From the NCBI GenBank assembly GCA_017444825.1, contig JAFSVU010000013.1:62001-126000 (forward strand): a stretch of 64,000 bases of DNA. Direction: 5' to 3'. The notes beneath the pieces were generated by a model. The model searched no databases. It was not told the origin of the DNA and saw nothing but the letters and a program-made list of their open reading frames with translations. Origin of the DNA: Clostridia bacterium (GTDB taxonomy: Bacteria; Bacillota; Clostridia; UBA1212). How positions within the stretch are numbered: position 1 is the first letter of the stretch; each line of letters opens with the position of its first letter. Position numbers and translations under genes: made by a program. Of this stretch, positions 189 through 20,306 are shown piece after piece.

Positions 189-1229
189 ATGCCACTTGAT
201 CCGGGGATGAGCCCAACCATTGAAAAAGTTATCAACCTTGCGGTCGCGAACCATGCGTCCGACGTGCATTTCAAAGCGAAGCAGGTGCCTGCCATCAGGA
301 TCAACGGCGAGATCATGCGTCTGAATTTCCCTGTTTTGACGGAAGAAGAGATAGTTGCTTTTACGAACTTTATGTGCCCGCGGCATGACGAGAGAAGTCC
401 TCTCGAGGCCAGAGACTTTTCCTGGGTACACAACGGGGCCCGCTTCCGTGTGAACGTTTTCCTTGACGGCAACGGCCTCTGCATCTCCATGCGCTACCTC
501 TACATCCCCACCACCGACTTTGCGACCCTCGGCATTCCCGAAATCTTGAAGAAGATGGCTGAGCGGAAGAGCGGCATGATCCTAATCACAGGGCCAACGG
601 GCTCCGGCAAGACCACTACGCTTACGTGCCTCATTGACTATATCAACAACACTTATCCCATGCACATCGTGACGCTGGAGGACCCTATCGAGTACGTTCA
701 CGAGTCGAAGCGCAGTATTATTTCCCAGCGTGAGATAGGCGTTACGGCTTTAAGCTACGAGCACGCCATCGTTGAGGCTCTTCGTGAGGACCCGGACATT
801 ATTTTCGTGGGCGAGATGAGAGACAGGGACAGTATAAGAGGAGCGCTGAGAGCCGCCGAGACGGGCCATCTGGTCCTTTCGACACTACACACCAAGGGCG
901 CCGCCAATACCGTCACCAGAGTCGTCGACATTTTCACCGCTGAGGAGCAAAACCAGGTCCGCATGCAGCTTTCGATGTGCCTCCTGGGCGTCGTGTCACA
1001 GCAGCTGGTGCCGAGAGCCGACCATTGCGGCCGTGTCCTTGCCACTGAGGTCATGATGGGAACCATTCCGGTCCAGAACCTCATCCGCCAGCAGAAGATT
1101 CACATGATCAATTCAACGCTGGATCTCTCCAGCAGCGAAGGTATGCATACCATGAAGCACTCGCTGCAGGAGCTGTTGGATATCGGGCTGATAGGGCAGA
1201 AGGAATATGATGCGTATCAGATAGTTTAA
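189..1229 (+). CDS. pilT: PilT-type pilus retraction ATPase
   Basis: A 346-residue cytoplasmic hexameric ATPase of the PilT/GspE secretion family, expected to power type IV pilus retraction (twitching). Visible motifs are the Walker A GPTGSGKTT (about residues 134-142), an Asp/Glu box around EDPIEYVH, a Walker B region DPDIIFVGEMRD (about 199-210) and the His box GHLVLSTLHT. Length and the lack of the long N-terminal domain and zinc-binding cysteines of PilB fit PilT. The start ATG follows GAGGAAA. It stands about 5 kb from the other pilus genes, with a promoter of its own. The TAA stop is immediately followed by a 3'-end repeat element and a terminator. Confidence 0.93.
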   Translation: MPLDPGMSPTIEKVINLAVANHASDVHFKAKQVPAIRINGEIMRLNFPVLTEEEIVAFTNFMCPRHDERSPLEARDFSWVHNGARFRVNVFLDGNGLCISMRYLYIPTTDFATLGIPEILKKMAERKSGMILITGPTGSGKTTTLTCLIDYINNTYPMHIVTLEDPIEYVHESKRSIISQREIGVTALSYEHAIVEALREDPDIIFVGEMRDRDSIRGALRAAETGHLVLSTLHTKGAANTVTRVVDIFTAEEQNQVRMQLSMCLLGVVSQQLVPRADHCGRVLATEVMMGTIPVQNLIRQQKIHMINSTLDLSSSEGMHTMKHSLQELLDIGLIGQKEYDAYQIV

Positions 1230-6317: not shown

Positions 6318-6340
6318 GACGTGCAATGGAGGGCATTGGT

Positions 6341-6898
6341 TTGCGTAATAAGCGTGGTTCAACTTTAACGGAGCTTATTATCGTGATGGCTGTTGTGGCG
6401 ATCATGTCTGTCATGGTCATATCGTTCACGACCATCGTCAGCGGCTGGTCCTCCCTTGGCACGGAAAGAGTCAACACCGCCCAGAGCGCAGAGCTGCTGT
6501 CAAGTCTTTTCCACAATTTTGTTTCGGAATACGATAATTCGATGTATAGATTTACTGCCTCGTCAAGTACCGAAACGGATACTGTTGACGAGGAGACAGT
6601 GACATACAACATTTATACGCTTGACGTTATAAATATCGCCGATAGTTCAAATGTTTCCGTGTTTAGATACGAAGAAAAGGACAACAGCATCACGATCACC
6701 GAAGACGATGCGTCGAGAACGATTGCGTTGAGCGGGGTGACTGTCAAAGGGTTTGGCATAATCCAAAACAGCGAGGTGTCTCAAAAGTCGATCCTCATAA
6801 CGGCGGACGTTGATTATGTCTACGTGACTCCGGGAAGAGCAAATCCGGAGGAGAACAGAAGCTATAAGCTGGTGGCGGCCTTAAGGTCGGGACAATAA
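6341..6898 (+). CDS. Type IV prepilin-like protein
   Basis: A pilin-family protein of about 185 residues. The short basic leader ends in RNKRG, followed by STLTELIIVM and a long hydrophobic helix, the classical prepilin peptidase site with Glu at position +5. The rest is a soluble Thr/Ser-rich head. I chose the TTG at 6341 because GGAGGG (6328-6333) sits eight bases before it. The in-frame ATG at 6326 would put that Shine-Dalgarno inside the gene and gives five extra residues, so the start is uncertain. It is the first of a run of pilus genes on the same strand and is a substrate for the PilD homologue encoded downstream. Confidence 0.85.
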   Translation: MRNKRGSTLTELIIVMAVVAIMSVMVISFTTIVSGWSSLGTERVNTAQSAELLSSLFHNFVSEYDNSMYRFTASSSTETDTVDEETVTYNIYTLDVINIADSSNVSVFRYEEKDNSITITEDDASRTIALSGVTVKGFGIIQNSEVSQKSILITADVDYVYVTPGRANPEENRSYKLVAALRSGQ

Positions 6899-6928: not shown

Positions 6929-7510
6929 GTGTCGTGGCTTAAAAAGAAAATGAATAACCGGGGCGTTACCATTGCGGAAGCGGTGGTGGCTATGGCTGTC
7001 ATTGTCGTGGTCAGTATGGCCGCTATGACCTGCGTTGAGTCTTTTACCAGAAGCTCTGCCAACGTGTGCGCCAGGAACGAGGCGCTGGTGGTTTCCGAGA
7101 CTGCCCTTGAGGTGTTCAAGGTGACCGAATTCTTTGGTTTTACCAGCCATACCGAAGATACTGTGCCTGACGACTCGTACAGAAAGCTGATGTCCGAGCT
7201 TGTCAGCGTCGAACCCACTTCGATTGCAAAAAATCCCAACTCAGCAGGTGGTGATACCACGCTGAACACTGATCAGATCGTGTTGCGTGTGTACAAAGAA
7301 CACTACTTGGTGTACGGGTGCGATATTGACATAACGATAGAGTACAGAAGAGACGCCAACAACGGTGCCGACGTGACTAAAAATACTGCCATATTCTCGG
7401 TGGAAGCGAAGGACAACAGGGGCAGAGAGATCCTCAAAATAGATTCCTACGAGAAACCGCTTACAAATATTACCGCCGAATTCCGACGAGCTGACACGGA
7501 GGCTTCATGA
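6929..7510 (+). CDS. Type IV prepilin-like protein
   Basis: A 193-residue prepilin with leader MSWLKKKMNNRG, a cleavage site before VTIAEAVVAM (Glu +5) and a single N-terminal hydrophobic helix. The head region has no disulfide pair or domain that I can name. The start is GTG at 6929. It overlaps the next pilin-like gene by four bases (ATGA), indicating translational coupling. It is probably a minor pilin or pseudopilin; which of the proteins forms the fibre cannot be decided here. Confidence 0.87.
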   Translation: MSWLKKKMNNRGVTIAEAVVAMAVIVVVSMAAMTCVESFTRSSANVCARNEALVVSETALEVFKVTEFFGFTSHTEDTVPDDSYRKLMSELVSVEPTSIAKNPNSAGGDTTLNTDQIVLRVYKEHYLVYGCDIDITIEYRRDANNGADVTKNTAIFSVEAKDNRGREILKIDSYEKPLTNITAEFRRADTEAS

Positions 7511-7965
7511 TACGGAAGATCAATGACAAAGGAATAGCGATGGAAGTTGCGATCGTGGCATTGCTCATCATATTTGCGCTTTGCTCGGTTCTTTTGACTA
7601 TGGCGGAAATTGGCGTCTACTCAAACAAACGGAACGCGGAGACCGTGGGTGACAGGATCCTCAGGACAAAGATCGTGGACGACTGCATGGTGGCGATCCA
7701 AAAAGACCGCACAGAAGCTCTGATCACAACACTCAATACGGATGAAAAGTATGAAGACTATGCGTTTACCGCAAGCCAGAGCGTCGATACTACTTATCTT
7801 TTCGTGTTTGAAAAGGATCCCCAACAGCTGGTTTTGACAATTAAGTTCAACACCAATAACGGCGATGTAATCGGCTACTATGCAGCGGATCATCTGCCGG
7901 ATGGAGTGTCTGCTCCTCCGCCGCCGACACCGGAGCCGACGCCCACCCCCACCCCCGCTGCCTGA
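7507..7965 (+). CDS. PilX/GspK-like minor prepilin with Pro/Thr-rich tail
   Basis: A 152-residue protein with leader MIRKINDKG, then IAMEVAIVALLIIFALCSVLL. The Glu falls at +4 rather than +5, and the start resembles the GspK/PilX class of tip minor pilins. The C-terminus is a run of Pro, Thr and Glu (about the last 20 residues), unusual for a pilin head and possibly a wall-spanning or flexible extension. Start overlaps the preceding gene. Function as a tip or priming pilin is inference. Confidence 0.75.
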   Translation: MIRKINDKGIAMEVAIVALLIIFALCSVLLTMAEIGVYSNKRNAETVGDRILRTKIVDDCMVAIQKDRTEALITTLNTDEKYEDYAFTASQSVDTTYLFVFEKDPQQLVLTIKFNTNNGDVIGYYAADHLPDGVSAPPPPTPEPTPTPTPAA

Positions 7966-8096: not shown

Positions 8097-9311
8097 ATGG
8101 CAAGAAGCGGATACGCAACCGTAATTTCTTTAAGACCTGATGAACAGGAGATCCAGTTCTTTTCAGGCGCCGGAAGAGACAAAAGCACGCTGAGATTCGA
8201 TTCCAAGACATACAAAGTCAAGAGCTATTGGTTAGGCGACGATTTTATGAAGGAATTCTCCCGCTGCCTGACCGAGTACGCAAACGCCAACCCGGCATAC
8301 ACCGGAAAGTCTGCATACGTTTCAATACTGCTGCCGAACAGGCTTGTTTCCACTACGAGCTTCAACATCCCGGGACTCAACAAGAAGACGACTTTGAATC
8401 TTTTCAACGTTGCCATGGAGAGCAACTACTCGAATCTCGCGGATCTTAAATACAACAATCTCATGGTGAAGCAGAATAAGCAGTACGCCACGTTCTGCGT
8501 TGCTCTCGTGAGGCAGAAGCTTCAGCAGGATCTCTACGCTGCGGCGGGCGGAGCAAACCTTCTCGCAAACCTCATGACCTACGATTCTGCGGCAAGCGGC
8601 TGCGGCGCTGTGGCTCTAAACAGCAAGATCGCCAATGAGACCTGCATTTTCATGGATATCAAGGAGTCAAGGGCTACCATCACATACATGACAAAAGGTT
8701 TGGTACTCGGCTGCATGGATCTGCCCTTCGGATGGAGTATCCTGAGGCAGACGAAGCCTGTGGCGGAAAATATGCTTTTCTCCCACGACGTAGCGGAACT
8801 GGCGGTCATCAACGCAAAGGAAAAAGCGAAGGCGAAGGCCCTCACCATGATGGGCGAGATGGCCCCCGGCGAAGATGAATACGGCTTCCCGGTGGAGGAA
8901 GAGGGCGAGATGATGCCCCAGGATCCGAATTTCCAGCCCAAGGTCCAGGCTCAGACGGTGAAGACGTTGCCCAAAAAGACAGCCAGAGTGCTGCCCAAGT
9001 GGATGCAGAGACCGATCCCGGACACACAGGAAGGCGTTGTTTACGAGAATTTCAGGATATTCCAGAAATATGCCCTTGAGTTCATCCGGGCGAACCTCAG
9101 ACTCACCACCATTGCGGAACCCACCTGCGTATACGTCAATATGCCCGACGAGTTTGATTTCGTTTACGAGCTGGTGAACGCCGAGGCCGACGAGAACAAG
9201 ATCAAGTTTGCAGATCTCGGAATCAAAAAAGAAAAAGCCGTCATAAAGGAACACGTGGAGCTTTACGGCGGACTGTTTGCCGATCAGTTCGGCTCGCTCA
9301 ACAATTTCTGA
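8097..9311 (+). CDS. pilM: PilM-like actin-fold pilus assembly protein
   Basis: A 404-residue soluble protein. The alternating strand pattern (VSILLPNRLVSTTSFNIPG; CIFMDIKESRATITYMTKG; LDLPFGW-like turn) and its place between minor pilins and pilD support a PilM-type actin-like ATPase that links the cytoplasmic side of the pilus machine to the membrane. A low-complexity Glu/Met/Pro-rich insertion is seen at about residues 250-290. No separate PilN or PilO gene follows. Start ATG is preceded by AAGGAG. The identification rests on fold-like pattern and context, not on strong motifs. Confidence 0.65.
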   Translation: MARSGYATVISLRPDEQEIQFFSGAGRDKSTLRFDSKTYKVKSYWLGDDFMKEFSRCLTEYANANPAYTGKSAYVSILLPNRLVSTTSFNIPGLNKKTTLNLFNVAMESNYSNLADLKYNNLMVKQNKQYATFCVALVRQKLQQDLYAAAGGANLLANLMTYDSAASGCGAVALNSKIANETCIFMDIKESRATITYMTKGLVLGCMDLPFGWSILRQTKPVAENMLFSHDVAELAVINAKEKAKAKALTMMGEMAPGEDEYGFPVEEEGEMMPQDPNFQPKVQAQTVKTLPKKTARVLPKWMQRPIPDTQEGVVYENFRIFQKYALEFIRANLRLTTIAEPTCVYVNMPDEFDFVYELVNAEADENKIKFADLGIKKEKAVIKEHVELYGGLFADQFGSLNNF

Positions 9312-9326: not shown

Positions 9327-10130
9327 ATGATTGGATTAGTTTACTTTTTTGCGGCGCTGATCGGTCTGTGCGTGGGAAGCTTCCTTAACGTGCTGATCTA
9401 CCGCCTGCCCAACAAGATCAACATTGCCGTGCCCGGCTCCCACTGCCCCAAATGCAGCTATAAGCTGAAGTGGTATGACAACATCCCGGTGATCTCCTAC
9501 ATCATTCTGAAAGGCAAGTGCAGGAACTGCGGCGGGAAGATCTCCATCAGATATACTATCGTCGAAATAGCCAATTCCCTTCTCTGGGTCGCGTGCGTCG
9601 CCATGTTCTGGAAGACGAGCATTCCCATGGCCTGCATTTACGCGCTGTCCCTTTCCATTCTGCTCACCATGACCTGCGCGGATCTTGAGTACCTGATAGT
9701 GCCGGATTCCCTGCAGATCGCTCTCGGTGTTCTGGCGGTGGCCACGGTGGTCCTTTCCGCGGTGGGCATCGATAAGACAGTAACCTGGTATTCAAGGCTC
9801 ATCGGCGCTGCCGTTTTCGGTCTCGCTTTTCTGGTAATATCGGTGATCTTCGAAAAAATAGTTCACCACGAGGCAATGGGCGGCGGAGACATAAAGCTGG
9901 CCTTCATTGCCGGAGGCTTACTCGGCTGGGAAAAGATGCTGGCGGCAATGCTTGTTGCAACCATCCTCGGCAGCATTATTCTCCTCATCATCAGGAAAGT
10001 TTCCAAATCGGAAAAAGAGACCCAGTATCCCTTCGTTCCGTTCATGGCCCTTGGCGTCGCTGCGATGATATTCTTTGGCGATTTTGTAGTGAAGGGCTAC
10101 TCGGACCTTATAGCAAGCATTATCAGGTAA
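9327..10130 (+). CDS. pilD: Prepilin peptidase (leader peptidase / N-methyltransferase)
   Basis: A 267-residue polytopic membrane aspartyl protease that cuts prepilin leaders and usually methylates the new N-terminus. The N-terminal methylase region has two CxxC pairs (CPKC near residue 41 and CRNC near 65), then about six to seven membrane helices. The two catalytic aspartates are in TCADLEYLIVPD and GGGDIKL. It is full length for the family. It should process the three prepilins encoded just upstream. Confidence 0.95.
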   Translation: MIGLVYFFAALIGLCVGSFLNVLIYRLPNKINIAVPGSHCPKCSYKLKWYDNIPVISYIILKGKCRNCGGKISIRYTIVEIANSLLWVACVAMFWKTSIPMACIYALSLSILLTMTCADLEYLIVPDSLQIALGVLAVATVVLSAVGIDKTVTWYSRLIGAAVFGLAFLVISVIFEKIVHHEAMGGGDIKLAFIAGGLLGWEKMLAAMLVATILGSIILLIIRKVSKSEKETQYPFVPFMALGVAAMIFFGDFVVKGYSDLIASIIR

Positions 10131-10157: not shown

Positions 10158-11369
10158 ATGCAAAAGTACAAGTACACGGCGGTGAATATGCAGAAGCAGA
10201 AGTTTACCGGCATCTTTATCGCCAAAGACGAACACGATCTGGCCGTTCAGCTCTCGAAGCAGAACCTGTACCTGGTTTCGTACAAGATATACAAGGGCAC
10301 CACGCCTTCGGCATTCTTCACACTGGGTACCGGAAAGCTTACGGCTACGGATCTGGCCAATTTCTGCCGGCAGTACGCCATCATGATCAATGCGGGAATG
10401 TCGCTCATCGCGGCCATTGACGTTTTGAGATCACAGCCCAGAAATTCCTACCTTAAATCGATCCTCGAGGTGGTGGCGGATGACGTAAAGGGCGGTATGA
10501 TGCTTTCTGAGGCGTTCAACAAACACGACACTGCATTCCCGGAGTTTTTCCGCAGCATGGTATACGTGGGCGAGGTCTCCGGAAGACTTGACATGGTGTT
10601 CAACTCTCTCGCAAACTACTACGAGACAGATGCCAAGATCAAGAAAAAGACAAAGGGCGCCATGGCCTACCCGCTGATGCTCCTGGGCATGACCCTCGGT
10701 ATATTGGTGGCGATGCTGGTCTGGATCGTGCCTACCTTCAGAAAAGCGCTGGATAACCTGGAGATCGTTCCCGAGGGAATAACCAAGGTCGTATGGGACG
10801 TGTCCGACTTCGTGCTGAACAACTGGCTTTACATTCTGTTCTTCATTGTCGTGATAGGCATCGTGATATTCGTGCTCCTTCGGACGGAGAAAGGAAAATA
10901 CGGTTTCGACGTGATCAAGCTCAGGGGCCCGCTGATCGGCCGCCTCACCACAGACCTTATAACCGCGAGATTCGCAAGGGGATTCAGCCTTCTCCTCTCC
11001 AGCGGTATGGGTATTTCAGACGCTATGGAGGCCATACAGGTGGTCCTGGGAAACAGGGACGTTACGAAACGGTTTAAAAAGGCCACTGAGGACGTTCTGG
11101 CGGGCTCGAGCCTGGCGGGCGCATTGGCGAAATACAAGCTGTTCCCGGAGATCATGATCCAGATGGTGGCTGTAGGTGAAAGGACCGCTTCTCTTGACGA
11201 GGTGCTTGCGAGATCCTGCGGATTTTTCGACGAAAAGGTCGAATCCACACTGCAGTCTGTTGTTTCGAAGATCCAGCCGGCGATGCTCCTTATCATGGGC
11301 GCCATCGTTGGTATGATGTTCATCGCTATCTACTCGCCAATGCTTTCAATTATGACCCAGCTGGGATGA
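10158..11369 (+). CDS. pilC: PilC/GspF inner-membrane platform protein
   Basis: A 403-residue protein with two GspF domains: a first cytoplasmic helical bundle (about residues 65-190), membrane helices near 170-195 and 220-245, a second bundle, and a C-terminal helix (PAMLLIMGAIVGMMFIAIY). It anchors the pilus assembly ATPases in the membrane. It lies 27 bases after pilD and 56 bases before pilB, consistent with one transcript. Confidence 0.93.
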   Translation: MQKYKYTAVNMQKQKFTGIFIAKDEHDLAVQLSKQNLYLVSYKIYKGTTPSAFFTLGTGKLTATDLANFCRQYAIMINAGMSLIAAIDVLRSQPRNSYLKSILEVVADDVKGGMMLSEAFNKHDTAFPEFFRSMVYVGEVSGRLDMVFNSLANYYETDAKIKKKTKGAMAYPLMLLGMTLGILVAMLVWIVPTFRKALDNLEIVPEGITKVVWDVSDFVLNNWLYILFFIVVIGIVIFVLLRTEKGKYGFDVIKLRGPLIGRLTTDLITARFARGFSLLLSSGMGISDAMEAIQVVLGNRDVTKRFKKATEDVLAGSSLAGALAKYKLFPEIMIQMVAVGERTASLDEVLARSCGFFDEKVESTLQSVVSKIQPAMLLIMGAIVGMMFIAIYSPMLSIMTQLG

Positions 11370-11425: not shown

Positions 11426-13117
11426 ATGAACTTAGATTTTGAGATTCTGCAATATTATATAAACAAGAAGATCGTTAAGAAAAAAGAGGCTGACACCATT
11501 CTCGAGGAGTGCACCAAGAGAGACGTACCGGTCCGTGAGTACATGCTGATGAAGGAGTACATCACAGAGGCGGGAGAGCTGGAGGCGCTTTCGGATTACT
11601 ACAATATCCCCTGCATCGAGATGGACATGCTTGATATCGACAAGGAGATCTTCGGCAAGTTCTCTTTCGAGTTCATGAAAAAGCACAAGGTGGTGCCGGT
11701 CAGCATCGATAAGAACGGTGTGCTGTTGGTGGCTATAGGAAGGATCCTTGATTCGGCCACTCTTTCGGCGGTCTCGATCTGCTTCGACAATCCCGTTGAT
11801 TTCGTTCTCACCGCGCCGACCCAGATCGACAGGTACATTGATGCTGCGGCCGCTGTTATCACCACGTCCACGGCTCTCAACGACCTGAACGCGGAGAAGG
11901 ACAGCGAGCTGTTCGCGGACAGAGCGGAATCACTGAACGCGGTATTCACAAACGAGGAGGGCGTTGTCAACAACCCCGCAGTAAGACTGGTCGACTCGAT
12001 CATCAAAGAGGCGATTCCTTACAGAGCTTCGGATATCCACATCGAGCCGTTTGAGAAGCGCGTAAGAGTGCGTTACCGTATCGACGGCGATCTTCAGGAG
12101 AGAGCCGACTTCCCCATCGAATCATATTCGGCCATCTGCGCCAGAATCAAGATCCTCTCGGGCATGAACATTGCCGAGAGAAGGACCCCTCAGGACGGAC
12201 GTATCAACATGCGGGTCGGCGGCAAGGAATTCGACTTCCGTGTATCCGCGATCCCTACGATCTACGGCGAAAAGTTCGTTATCCGTATCCTGGATAAGAC
12301 CTCCTTCCACTTTACCAGGCCCGACCTCGGTTTCACGGAGAGGGAGAACTCATTTATCGACAGGATGCTTATGAAGCCCCACGGCATCATACTTCTTACG
12401 GGTCCTACGGGTTCCGGTAAGACCACCACCCTCTATTCATTCCTTAAAGAGGTCAACAATCCCTCCGTGAACATCATCACGGTAGAGGACCCGGTGGAGT
12501 ACACCATGACCGGTATCAACCAGACCCAGGTAAATACAAAGATCAGCATGACCTTCGCGACGGCCCTCCGTTCCATACTGCGTCAGGACCCCGATATAAT
12601 CATGATCGGTGAGATCCGTGACGAGGAGACGGCGGAGATCGCGGTAAGGGCGGCTATTACGGGACACCTTGTGTTCAGTACGCTGCACACCAATGACGCT
12701 CCCGGCGCCATCACGCGTCTTGAGGACATGGGTGTGCCGGACTACCTTATTTCCGACGCTCTGGCCGGCGTTATAGCCCAGCGTCTTGTAAAGAGGCTCT
12801 GCCCCGCCTGCAAGAAGCGCGGAAAAGCCAATGCGAAAGAGATGGAGATCCTGGGCCTCGACGAGCCTATCAGTATTTTCAGACCCCAGGGATGCCAGTT
12901 CTGCAACAACACCGGCTACAAGGGACGTATTGGCGTTCACGAGGTCATGCTCATGAATGAGCATATGAAGAACGAAGTAACAAGAAACAAGAACCCCGAG
13001 TCCCTGAAAGAAATGGCCATCAAAAACGGTATGGTTCCTCTTTGGGATTCCTGCAGAGAGATAGTCATCTCGGGTATAACGAGCGTTCAGGAGCTCATGA
13101 CCCTGAACCAGGAGTGA
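11426..13117 (+). CDS. pilB: PilB/GspE pilus assembly ATPase
   Basis: A 563-residue ATPase that drives pilus extension. It has an N-terminal MshEN-type region (about 1-150), an N2 domain with ASDIHIEPFEKRVRVRYRIDG-like sequence, the Walker A GPTGSGKTTTLY (about 324-335), the Walker B DPDIIMIGEIRD, the His box and a zinc-binding CPAC...CQFC module (about 459-492). All hallmarks of PilB are intact. The promoter-side spacer contains CATTGGTT at 11380. It ends 37 bases before the next gene, probably in one operon. Confidence 0.95.
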   Translation: MNLDFEILQYYINKKIVKKKEADTILEECTKRDVPVREYMLMKEYITEAGELEALSDYYNIPCIEMDMLDIDKEIFGKFSFEFMKKHKVVPVSIDKNGVLLVAIGRILDSATLSAVSICFDNPVDFVLTAPTQIDRYIDAAAAVITTSTALNDLNAEKDSELFADRAESLNAVFTNEEGVVNNPAVRLVDSIIKEAIPYRASDIHIEPFEKRVRVRYRIDGDLQERADFPIESYSAICARIKILSGMNIAERRTPQDGRINMRVGGKEFDFRVSAIPTIYGEKFVIRILDKTSFHFTRPDLGFTERENSFIDRMLMKPHGIILLTGPTGSGKTTTLYSFLKEVNNPSVNIITVEDPVEYTMTGINQTQVNTKISMTFATALRSILRQDPDIIMIGEIRDEETAEIAVRAAITGHLVFSTLHTNDAPGAITRLEDMGVPDYLISDALAGVIAQRLVKRLCPACKKRGKANAKEMEILGLDEPISIFRPQGCQFCNNTGYKGRIGVHEVMLMNEHMKNEVTRNKNPESLKEMAIKNGMVPLWDSCREIVISGITSVQELMTLNQE

Positions 13118-13153
13118 CCGGTCATTTAACACTTGTTTCAGTTTGGAGGTATT

Positions 13154-15901
13154 ATGGCGAGACAGCACTTTTATTCGCGTGTTCCGTTCAGAGTGAGTAT
13201 GTTCAACAGAGCCGACGGCTTTGACACATTCGCCTGCTCGGAAGGTGTGGAGAGGGAGTTCATCGACAAAGATCTTAGTGTGGTTTGCGAAAACAAACCG
13301 ACGCCCAACGAGTCAGTTCAGATCAGAAAGGGCGAACTGCCGCCTGTATATTGCATGTTTACCGCAAAGGACGGCACTCTTGTGGAGAGCTGCACCACGT
13401 ACCTGCCCCTTGACTACACGGGAGAGCGCAGCAGCTACATGGTACACAACCTGCTCTTCTCACCCCAGGAAGCCGAATCGCTTTTCTTTACCCCCAAGAG
13501 AATACCCTTCAATGCGGATATGTTCGAGCATGAGATCGACCATTTCAACATTACGTCTCCGACCGCGAAGCCTTTCTTTAAATACCCCGAAAAGGATTAC
13601 GTATGCCTTGATTTTGAGCCTACGGACTGGCTCCTTGACGAGTTTGATCCCATAATGCTTTCCAGGGTGCTTTACTGCATCCTTGCGGCATCCTGCGGCA
13701 ACCTCAAAAATCTCTACCTGTATTTCCCGGATCACAGCAGCGAGTTTGCCATCCGTTTCTTCAATACGATATACAGCGTGTTCCCGTACCACATGAGGCC
13801 TCAGCTCTCATTCGCAACGAGAGTCAGCGACATATCAAGGTATTCGTCCATCAAGATCAAATGCCTGTCCGCTAACGTTGTGGTACCTCCTGTGAGAGGC
13901 GCCATGATAAACCTGAAGGTCAACCAGTACACAGGAATGAGGGATGACGACATTGCCCCCTGGCGGCAGATCATCGATCTTTTCATAAGCATGCTGAAAA
14001 ACGACGCCATCAGGCAGGAATTCCTGGTATTTGCCCAGAACGCGGTAAATTCCGTGCCGGCACTGGCCCAGCCCTCTCTCAAGATGCTGAACAATCTGGT
14101 GTTCCTGTTCAGGTGCAGCAGCGGTCTTTTTGAGGAGAGGCTCGTTCTCCCGACGGACGACAAGATACTGGAATACTTCACAGTTTACGAAAAATACAGG
14201 GCTGCGCTCAGCCCCGAGTTCAGGACTAATGCGGTCAAATGCATCAAACGCTACCCCGCCACCCACACCGCCATTCCTCAGAAGCTTTTCGCTAAAATTG
14301 CGAAGATCTACCCTACGGACATCCCGGCGGTCAGGTATATCATCATGCAGGTGGTGCTGGACCTCATCCACATGGACATAATGAGGGACAAGCTCTTTGC
14401 CTTCGTAAGGTCGAACTACGCCTCCCAGGAGAGGGACGAAAAGGACGAGATCATTAAGAACATCAGCCGTGTATTCTACGGCGGTTTTCTCCAGAGCCAG
14501 ATACTGTCATTTTTCCAGTCCATATTCCTGGACGAGTCCCCGGATGCCCAGCTTGAGATAATGGATAAGCTGCTCCTTTCCATCCGCAACAAGGACGTTA
14601 AGGACCAGATAATGACGTTTATCGAAACCAATTTTAAAGGCTTCACACCCCAGATCCGCCACAACATTTATCTGGCGGCCATTGAGCACATCCAGGAGGG
14701 GGACGACTTGGCGTCAAGGCTCATTGACGTCATTGACCTCAACATGCCCGGAGAGGTTCCGGAGGAGAGGACCTGGTTTGAACTTAAGCTGGTGTCCGCC
14801 GCCAAGGCAGAACAGCGCAAGAAGAACCACCCGATGATCAGGATACTTGCCCGGAAGCACGGATACTGCTCGGCCCTGGTGCTGAAAAAGGTGTTCAACG
14901 AGGAGATGGGTAAAAAGGCATATGGCGAGGTCATAGCAGGTTTCTGCGAGGGAACTCTCAAGGATCTGGCTCTTTCGCTGAGACAGGCGCTGCCTCTTTT
15001 CTCGGATTTTGACGAAGAAGCCAATGCAAGGCTCTACAGAAACATTAAAGAGAGCTTAGACGCTCAGCAAAAGAGATACGATCTCCCTTCGGTCATCGAG
15101 GCGGACAAGATAATAACCAAGGCCTACGACGAGGAGGAGGAGCCCCTGGCTGTGGTGTTCTGGCAGGATTTTGCCGAGCAGATCATTGCTTCAGCCATGA
15201 AGAAGGCTCTGCCGGACGTGTTCCGCTATATCAACCAGCCTGAGGTGCTTGACGAAGCACTTGAGGTTTCCAAAAAGTACAGCGACGTGACGGAATCCGA
15301 AGGATATGCTGCGGCCGCAGGCTACAAGCGTCTTTTGAACGCCATTGATTCCTGCTCACCCGACGGGATACTTAAAGCGCTTGACGAGATGCCCGGGGAT
15401 CAAATGAAGCGGAGACAGATGAGCGAGTACATGAGAAGGACCTACAAGGTGAAGGACGAGGCTCCGGTCAGGATCAAAGCCTGGTTCGGCTCAGTTATCA
15501 CTTATCTCAAGTCCGGAGAATACGATTTCACAGGCATGTACGACACCGCGAAGCAGATCCTGGACGAAAATGAGGAGCCTCAAGAGGAGACCAAGGGCCG
15601 TAAGGGCGCTGCGGGACCGGATACGGGGCTTGAGGCCATTGGTTACGTGCTGGAATTCGGCAATGCAGTGGGTCAGAGATGCGGTCAGGATATGAAAGAC
15701 GCGCTTTATGCGGAGGGCTCGTCCCTTTCCGGCGCTCTTAATTCATACATAGGACTGGGCAAGAACCAGGAGAAGAAAAAACTCTCCGCGGCGATCGGTG
15801 CCCTGAAACCCGAAAACAGTGAATTTGCGGTAAAATGCACAGAATATATTAAAGGCAGCGCGAAGCCTTCATTCTTCTCAAGTCTTTTCGGAAGGAAATA
15901 G
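13154..15901 (+). CDS. Large protein of unknown function linked to the pilus operon (possibly GAP1-like)
   Basis: A 915-residue protein without signal peptide or clear membrane span. The start is ATG at 13154, behind GGAGGT; an earlier in-frame start has no ribosome site. The N-terminal part begins HFYSRVPFRVSMFNRADGF and has a mixed strand/helix pattern to about residue 330; the remainder is mostly alpha-helical, rich in Lys/Glu, like a solenoid. The N-terminus is reminiscent of the GAP1 (GTPase-associated protein 1) family described in predicted NTP-dependent conflict systems, but no GTPase partner lies nearby, so this is weak. Only 37 bases separate it from pilB, suggesting a shared transcript. 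Confidence 0.7.
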   Translation: MARQHFYSRVPFRVSMFNRADGFDTFACSEGVEREFIDKDLSVVCENKPTPNESVQIRKGELPPVYCMFTAKDGTLVESCTTYLPLDYTGERSSYMVHNLLFSPQEAESLFFTPKRIPFNADMFEHEIDHFNITSPTAKPFFKYPEKDYVCLDFEPTDWLLDEFDPIMLSRVLYCILAASCGNLKNLYLYFPDHSSEFAIRFFNTIYSVFPYHMRPQLSFATRVSDISRYSSIKIKCLSANVVVPPVRGAMINLKVNQYTGMRDDDIAPWRQIIDLFISMLKNDAIRQEFLVFAQNAVNSVPALAQPSLKMLNNLVFLFRCSSGLFEERLVLPTDDKILEYFTVYEKYRAALSPEFRTNAVKCIKRYPATHTAIPQKLFAKIAKIYPTDIPAVRYIIMQVVLDLIHMDIMRDKLFAFVRSNYASQERDEKDEIIKNISRVFYGGFLQSQILSFFQSIFLDESPDAQLEIMDKLLLSIRNKDVKDQIMTFIETNFKGFTPQIRHNIYLAAIEHIQEGDDLASRLIDVIDLNMPGEVPEERTWFELKLVSAAKAEQRKKNHPMIRILARKHGYCSALVLKKVFNEEMGKKAYGEVIAGFCEGTLKDLALSLRQALPLFSDFDEEANARLYRNIKESLDAQQKRYDLPSVIEADKIITKAYDEEEEPLAVVFWQDFAEQIIASAMKKALPDVFRYINQPEVLDEALEVSKKYSDVTESEGYAAAAGYKRLLNAIDSCSPDGILKALDEMPGDQMKRRQMSEYMRRTYKVKDEAPVRIKAWFGSVITYLKSGEYDFTGMYDTAKQILDENEEPQEETKGRKGAAGPDTGLEAIGYVLEFGNAVGQRCGQDMKDALYAEGSSLSGALNSYIGLGKNQEKKKLSAAIGALKPENSEFAVKCTEYIKGSAKPSFFSSLFGRK

Positions 15902-18578: not shown

Positions 18579-20306
18579 ATGGACCTTGAATATCTTGTAC
18601 TCAGCATCGCCAAAGGCGTCGAGGAGGATTTTAATAAGTTTTACAACGAAACAAAAAACGGTGCTTTTGCTTTTGCGCTTGCCCTGACAGGGGACAGACA
18701 GGTGGCAAGGGATGCGGCGGCGGAGAGCTACAGGCGTGTCTCAAGCGAAGCCAAGGTCTTCGACACAGGCATGTCCGCAAAAATGTGGCACCTTGAGATA
18801 CTGCGCAATCTTTGCATGAACGGCCTCGCCGACGGAGAGATCGCAAAGCAGGCTGCCCAGAAGAGGCGGGAGAACCTTTCAATTCTTTTGACCAATGGGC
18901 TCTTCGAAACCGCAGAGGACAGGGGAAAAATCATTGCGGCACGCCTGGGCGCCGGCCTCTCGAGGAGGGACGCCGCAAAGCTTCTCTGGTACAACACCGC
19001 CTCATGCTCCGGCGAGTACACCCGCGGCATCAGAGAGGCTGCGGACCTTTCGGGCTACAAGGGCGAAGATTTAAAACCTGCCTCCGAGATAGAAACGATG
19101 CTGAGAGAGGACTTTGAATCTGCGACTCCTGATTTCCTGGAGCTGGCAAAGGGCGGCAGGGAGACCATGTTTTCCAACATCAACAGCGCTGTTCTGCTGG
19201 CCGGAGAGAGCGAAGGGGCACTTCCGGGTGAGAGCAGAGAGGACAGGCAGAAGCGCATCGCGGAGAAGACGTTGGCGTCAAAACGCCGCAAGGTCATCAC
19301 TATAGTCATCATTCTGGCTGCTGTGGCGGTGGCGGCTGCCGTAGGGCTTACGATCTTCTTTTCGGGTATGCAGCGCTCGCTTATTGAGGAGCCGGATGCC
19401 ACACCTGTTCCTGAGCCCCAGTACAGGACGGTTGCGGATGTCACGGTCTACGGAGACAATATTTACTATTCGAACTATGCCGATGACGGCTGCCTCTACG
19501 TGTACGACCTTAAGACGGGAAAAAGCAGTAAAATATCCGATGCGAAGCCCAGAGATTTTTCGAAATTTTCCGGGAGTATTTGCTACTTCAGAGACTCTTC
19601 GAAGGGCGAGATAGCAAAGCTTGACGCAAAAACCAATACCGTCGAATACACCGGCATCACCGGCGCCATTCCCTGCATCTACGGCGATGACGTGTACATT
19701 TCCACAAGAAACGGCGTCTCGGTTCTCTCGGGAGGCGAGGTAAAGGAGATATTCAACGACAGCACGGGCACCGCGTTCAGATGCGACATGGCTGTGATCA
19801 ACGGCGTGGTGGTGTTCTCATCTGCCCCCTCTGCGGGACTCTACAGGATGACTCCCACCGCCCTGGACGAGTATTACGTGGAACAGAGTCTCCCCGACTA
19901 CGTTATAAACGATTTTTACGTATCCGGCACGTATATCGTATTTGACGACGGCACCGGAAACCTTTTTGTGATAGACGTTGAGAGCGGAAAGCTCCTGCCG
20001 AGGATCGGCGCAAAGATACTTTCGGGAGCCATAACCACGGACGGTGACGTAATATATTTCTACGGAAAGACATCTGATGGACCGAAGGGCGTTTACTCGA
20101 TCACGATAGAGAACGCGGCAGAGTCGAAGGAACCCTCTCTCGTTCTGTCATTGGAAGACCAAAAGTATGACCTTTCGGACATATACGTCTCCGGTGACGT
20201 GACGGTCCTTTACTACTCTAACGGAGAAAAAACGGGGGCATACAACGAGCTCCAGGTCATAAACCGGGGAGAGAGCCCTGTCACGGTGTTTAAGAACACT
20301 AATTAA
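18579..20306 (+). CDS. Sigma-factor-like domain fused to a transmembrane helix and an extracellular beta-propeller
   Basis: A 575-residue protein of unusual build. Residues about 1-160 resemble a degenerate ECF sigma factor: the segment ALTGDRQVARDAAAESYRRV aligns by eye with region 2 and LGAGLSRRDAAKLLWYNTAS with the region 4 helix-turn-helix. One membrane helix follows (about residues 238-260, ITIVIILAAVAVAAAVGLTI). Residues about 285-575 are a repeated Tyr/Asp/Gly-rich pattern (DNIYYSNYADDGCLYVYD, DDVYISTRNGVSVL) typical of DUF5050-type beta-propellers, predicted outside the cell. It starts ten bases after the phosphoesterase stop. A sensor coupled to transcription is one reading; the sigma-like part may have lost DNA or polymerase binding. 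Confidence 0.78.
   Translation: MDLEYLVLSIAKGVEEDFNKFYNETKNGAFAFALALTGDRQVARDAAAESYRRVSSEAKVFDTGMSAKMWHLEILRNLCMNGLADGEIAKQAAQKRRENLSILLTNGLFETAEDRGKIIAARLGAGLSRRDAAKLLWYNTASCSGEYTRGIREAADLSGYKGEDLKPASEIETMLREDFESATPDFLELAKGGRETMFSNINSAVLLAGESEGALPGESREDRQKRIAEKTLASKRRKVITIVIILAAVAVAAAVGLTIFFSGMQRSLIEEPDATPVPEPQYRTVADVTVYGDNIYYSNYADDGCLYVYDLKTGKSSKISDAKPRDFSKFSGSICYFRDSSKGEIAKLDAKTNTVEYTGITGAIPCIYGDDVYISTRNGVSVLSGGEVKEIFNDSTGTAFRCDMAVINGVVVFSSAPSAGLYRMTPTALDEYYVEQSLPDYVINDFYVSGTYIVFDDGTGNLFVIDVESGKLLPRIGAKILSGAITTDGDVIYFYGKTSDGPKGVYSITIENAAESKEPSLVLSLEDQKYDLSDIYVSGDVTVLYYSNGEKTGAYNELQVINRGESPVTVFKNTN

Follow-up and report, generated by a model that had tools for sequence, protein, structure and literature searches.

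A GAP1-N2 family protein encoded directly after pilB in a clostridial type IV pilus locus

The gene and its position behind pilB

A stretch of 64,000 nucleotides from a Clostridia bacterium (GenBank assembly GCA_017444825.1, contig JAFSVU010000013.1, positions 62,001 to 126,000; hereafter, the window) carries a type IV pilus locus, and directly behind pilB, the gene for the pilus extension ATPase, lies an intact open reading frame (ORF; positions 13154-15901, forward strand) for a protein of 915 residues. The frame begins at an ATG, four bases ahead of which a GGAGG ribosome site was located (13145-13149), in agreement with a preliminary description of the locus that had reported a strong one. 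Because all orthologues begin with the same M-A-(K/R)-Q-H sequence, the ATG at 13154 was taken as the correct start, and the shared N terminus also ruled out a TTG at 13133 as an alternative. Full-length homologues were found in six further genomes at identities as low as 33%, and a chance ORF was therefore ruled out.

The locus runs in one direction from three pilin-like genes through the genes for a 404-residue protein and the prepilin peptidase to pilC, pilB, and the gene for the 915-residue protein (Table 1), behind which uvrC is the next gene. The stop codon of pilB at 13117 leaves a gap of 36 bases, so that the direct succession described previously stands while the figure of 37 bases does not, and no terminator-like site was found on the forward strand between the two genes, again as described. 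Cotranscription of pilB and the 915-residue gene is plausible in the window; the gaps in the seven genomes measured 36, 46, 21, 136, 141, 219, and 291 bases.

Of the seven carrier genomes, four belong to the same genus as the window (G000, G001, G004, and G005, the gene being split over two contig ends in G004) and three were reached through L009 and its order (G789, G919, and G811); together they represent a group of rumen-type Clostridia from two orders. The direct succession of pilC, pilB, and the 915-residue gene was observed in all seven, in each case with a PilB of the same subfamily, and the gene was usually the last of the pilus run. No orthologue was located away from pilus genes, a placement that the preliminary description had regarded as telling against a pilus connection. 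Across these genomes identity to the window sequences fell as low as 33% for the 915-residue protein, while PilB remained at 71% or above. What lies downstream varied: genomes of the window's genus have uvrC there, L009 has unrelated ORFs together with inverted repeats, and L078 and L079 have convergent genes. Since these neighbors change, the link is to the pilus and not to uvrC, and a functional tie to uvrC as a general feature was rejected.

Co-occurrence was then considered by order. Among the 31 genomes of the window's order, four contained a close PilB, and these were also the four with the gene; two further members of the window's genus were without both, and two genomes of the order had a PilB of 41-42% identity and no copy of the gene. 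In the other order, a PilB-like ATPase was present in 47 of 197 genomes; five contained the close subfamily (69-82% identity), three of these with the gene, and the 42 with a PilB of at most 55% identity gave no match to the orthologue profile. Taking both orders together, the gene was carried by seven of nine genomes with a close PilB and by none of the 44 with a distant PilB only, counts that come from genomes of shared ancestry and are not independent trials. A real and conserved association of this protein with one clostridial type IV pilus lineage is well supported by these data.

Table 1. Features of the pilus locus in the window and regions of the 915-residue protein.
Feature	Position	Strand	Basis
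915-residue GAP1-N2 family protein	13154..15901	+	ORF, GGAGG site, orthologues in six further genomes
GAP1-N2 domain, residues 1-117	13154..13504	+	PF20013; 24/50 first positions invariant in six orthologues
GAP1-M-like region, approximately residues 165-260	13646..13933	+	PF20014 E-value 0.035; 4/6 orthologues; hhalign coverage
Pilus-clade-specific conserved helical block, residues 398-460	14345..14533	+	LIHxDxMRDKLF ... VFYGGFLQ
Predicted all-helical, solenoid-like C-terminal half, residues 410-900	14381..15853	+	AlphaFold2, predicted local distance difference test (pLDDT) mostly 70-90
Conserved hydrophobic-basic C-terminal tail, residues 905-915	15866..15898	+	F908, F912, K915 invariant in six orthologues
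pilB, type IV pilus extension ATPase	11426..13117	+	T2SSE E-value 3.1e-138; best NCBIfam model type_IV_pilB
pilC, platform protein	10158..11369	+	T2SSF E-value 3.9e-56
pilD, prepilin peptidase	9327..10130	+	A24_N_bact, Peptidase_A24
404-residue protein, possibly divergent PilM-like	8097..9311	+	Same place in L007, L008, L078, L079, L111, L112
Three pilin-like genes	6326-6898, 6929-7510, 7507-7965	+	N_methyl motif in first two; relatives keep order
pilT-like retraction ATPase, apart from main run	189..1229	+	T2SSE E-value 3.3e-49

The 404-residue protein is soluble and, at identities of 33-65%, is kept in place in all complete versions of the locus. It gave no Pfam or PDB match, and an attempt to establish it as PilM by profile yielded no match; it is possibly a divergent PilM. 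Neither pilN nor pilO was recognized in the window's pilus run. The N terminus of the window PilB (11426-11900) was assigned to the MshEN domain by Pfam, and the published relaxed MshEN motif for cyclic di-GMP was matched by none of the seven PilBs examined from this subfamily. A loss of cyclic di-GMP binding by this PilB was not taken as evidence, since several unrelated clostridial PilBs fail the motif too. Three genes downstream of the 915-residue gene the window encodes a DUF5050 protein (18579-20306). A DUF5050 protein is also encoded directly upstream of a GAP1-N2 gene of unrelated context (L050:11841-12410), which may be chance.

Kinship with GAP1 and predicted architecture

GTPase-associated protein 1 (GAP1) of the GAP1-N2 type has been described from predicted conflict (immunity) systems that have a DO-GTPase (Kaur et al. 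2020, eLife; PMC7159879). A Pfam search placed the GAP1-N2 domain on the first 117 residues of the window protein (E-value 1e-13; 52 bits against a cut-off of 24), and the domain was present in all six orthologues. The GAP1-M domain (PF20014) scored 14.8 bits in the window protein, under its cut-off of 24, and four of the six orthologues matched it at E-values up to 0.1, the best being 2e-5. When a profile of the six orthologues was aligned by hhalign with GAP1 proteins from tubulin, vWA, and DO-GTPase loci, the two were related over residues 2-394 (E-value 3.6e-21), a region that spans the GAP1-M-like part of the window protein; the match to HSP70-type GAP1 proteins was weaker (E-value 3.1e-9). 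In a tree built from the first 330 residues, the pilus proteins formed one clade (support 100/100) that fell on the side of the tubulin-type GAP1 proteins (100/99), with an exact position that is unsure given the long branches. From the Pfam match, the profile alignments, and the tree taken together, the resemblance of the N terminus to GAP1, already remarked upon in the preliminary description, is one of real homology. The 915-residue protein belongs to the GAP1 family as far as the N2 domain goes. No sequence relatives were found in the PDB, and a search of PHROGs gave no match.

The alignment with canonical GAP1 stops at residues 394-397, and the remainder of the protein, the region assessed for a GAP1-C domain, is predicted to be helical and did not align. 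Two stretches stand out as conserved among the six orthologues, residues 1-50 and residues 401-450, each with 24 invariant positions out of 50, and conservation is nearly nil at residues 700-850; the second peak, with its LIHxDxMRDKLF and VFYGGFLQ motifs, starts where the canonical alignment ends.

The overall confidence of an AlphaFold2 model of the whole protein was low (mean pLDDT 61.6), and no fold is claimed for the N-terminal half because model confidence there was too low. Comparison of the predicted C-terminal half with the PDB returned generic HEAT/ARM solenoids only, with a best Z of 10.6 that, as the tool warns, may reflect merely a common arrangement of helical repeats; the half can be likened to such solenoids in a general way only. 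The conserved C-terminal tail could possibly contact the membrane. An amphipathic membrane helix was considered for it and kept as a hint, the hydrophobic moment of the window tail being merely average.

GAP1-N2 loci of other types

GAP1-N2 was detected in 20 genomes of a sample of 391 from the class and in 10 of a sample of 398 from the phylum. The canonical loci in these samples were of the tubulin/DO-GTPase and HSP70/DO-GTPase types. Two further arrangements were noted. In a single family, eleven genomes (L044-L049 and L052-L056, with L048:5552-12342 as an example) encode a GAP1-N2 protein of ~ 720 residues, in most cases examined directly after two ATP-binding cassette (ABC) exporter genes, with pyrG-like and aminotransferase-like genes near and a secreted-looking protein encoded after the GAP1-N2 gene. 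In two genomes of one family (L043:3-3788 and L051:267-4348) a GAP1-N2/M gene directly follows a gene for an FprA-type flavoprotein, made up of an ODP lactamase and a flavodoxin part, and the GAP1-N2/M protein has a hydrophobic, transmembrane-like C terminus. No DO-GTPase2 domain scored over the cut-off in the five ABC-type genomes tested or in both flavoprotein-type genomes. In the tree, proteins of the ABC type grouped with HSP70-type GAP1 proteins and those of the pilus type with tubulin-type ones, which suggests at least two separations of GAP1-N2 from DO-GTPases, subject to the long branches.

Proposed role of the GAP1-N2 protein at the pilus

A pilus role of the 915-residue protein is likely on the comparative evidence, in keeping with one of two alternatives in the preliminary description, a new accessory component of type IV pili in Gram-positive bacteria, which the adjacency to pilB in seven of seven genomes supports. 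The favored interpretation of these data, to which a probability of roughly 55% is given, is that the protein is a GAP1-N2-derived accessory cytoplasmic regulator of this lineage's pilus, one that would license extension by binding to PilB or to the machine base. The mechanism is a guess. Docking on PilB or on the machine base (PilC or the 404-residue protein) would fall to the helical C-terminal half and chiefly to the block at residues 398-460, which perhaps forms a pilus-specific contact; the GAP1-N2 head may keep an older role in responding to a partner or signal; and docking would localize or license PilB for extension in the manner of FimX and SgmX. The canonical GAP1 gene is typically found downstream of its GTPase gene (PMC7159879), and the window gene likewise directly follows an NTPase gene. 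As that gene is here pilB, by analogy this suggests that PilB may stand in place of the NTPase partner of GAP1.

Such accessory factors have precedents. In Myxococcus xanthus, SgmX, a protein with 14 tetratricopeptide repeats (TPRs) and an effector of the GTPase MglA, brings PilB to the pole (PMC7519303, PMC11580455). Like SgmX, the window protein would be a large helical-repeat pilus accessory protein, its repeats being predicted, and the likeness is in proposed function only, as SgmX has TPRs, is without GAP1-N2, and showed no sequence kinship. FimX and PilZ, which regulate PilB in Pseudomonas and Xanthomonas, are accessory and lineage-restricted (PMC11656802). The window protein resembles them in both respects and may, by analogy, share in the control of PilB; the domains described for FimX and PilZ were not found in it by Pfam.

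Several observations weigh against the proposed role. Two genomes, G892 (L111) and G932 (L112), keep the whole pilus run, with a PilB ~ 80% identical to that of L079, and contain neither the gene nor a remnant of it. The gene is therefore accessory and not essential for this pilus. The 219-base gap to pilB contains a promoter-like site (matching 10 of 12 positions), and in the two genomes with gaps of 219-291 bases, the GAP1-N2 gene may have its own expression. In addition, two AlphaFold runs, made with few sequences, both gave low confidence for residues 1-400.

The same variable gap to pilB, the loss of the gene from two genomes that keep the pilus locus, and the small number of lineages behind the seven genomes would all suit a history in which the gene was placed once after pilB, simply stayed there, and has an unrelated housekeeping role. 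This is a lesser possibility, since the adjacency persists even where the protein has diverged to 33% identity and every downstream neighbor has changed, and since the gene was not detected where this pilus is missing.

Phages commonly use pili as receptors, and the protein could still serve a conflict system as a GAP1-type sensor or adaptor stationed at the pilus, where it might detect phages that bind pili; its GTPase or effector would then be encoded elsewhere in the genome. The homology to GAP1 from predicted conflict systems (PMC7159879) would fit this explanation, and gene loss in some genomes suits an optional module. However, unlike the canonical systems, DO-GTPase2 did not score over the Pfam cut-off in any of four pilus-type genomes (G000, G001, G004, and G005), in which the genome-wide search did not extend to DO-GTPase1 or other GTPases, while the same search as a control matched in five of five canonical genomes. 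The linked DO-GTPase and the neighboring components that mark a DO-GTPase conflict system were absent: no DO-GTPase lay beside the GAP1-N2 gene, and no FNIII, tubulin, vWA, HSP70, or kinase genes were present at the locus, which instead contains pilus genes followed by uvrC or unrelated convergent genes. No recognizable effector gene or domain adjoined the gene, the PADLOC defense library gave no match, and no copies were found in plasmid and phage collections. The conserved neighbors are pilus genes only, and the gene remains at the pilus locus across large divergence. A conflict sensor at the pilus is accordingly improbable, and the defense-type module offered as the other alternative in the preliminary description was not supported. 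Less probable still is a protein that inhibits the pilus or acts on its retraction side, through PilT or pilin turnover, in place of a PilB stimulator, for although the sequence does not fix the direction of effect and a pilT-like gene is also present in the window, that gene lies ~ 12 kb off while pilB adjoins the gene in every carrier genome.

For the proposed PilB-linked regulator, G892 and G932 offer natural comparison strains in which the contribution of the protein can be gauged. GAP1-N2 has been described so far in predicted conflict systems together with DO-GTPases (PMC7159879), and the terms pilus, pili, and PilB are absent from the main text of that study; a library search on GAP1-N2 and DO-GTPases matched three papers, and judged by title or abstract none of them deals with pili. 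A GAP1-N2 protein as an accessory part of a clostridial type IV pilus is apparently undescribed before. A stable copy of the domain in a pilus operon, with no DO-GTPase2 found, suggests that it has uses outside conflict systems. More speculatively, and with the odds against it, GAP1-N2 could be a general regulatory adaptor of nucleoside triphosphate-driven membrane machines, repeatedly split from DO-GTPases, giving a new class of PilB regulator here and coupling to ABC exporters elsewhere. Adjacency to a well-studied motor provides a concrete place in which to learn the binding partner of GAP1-N2, and the protein adds a candidate regulator to the Gram-positive type IV pili, the control of which is less known than that of their counterparts in Proteobacteria.
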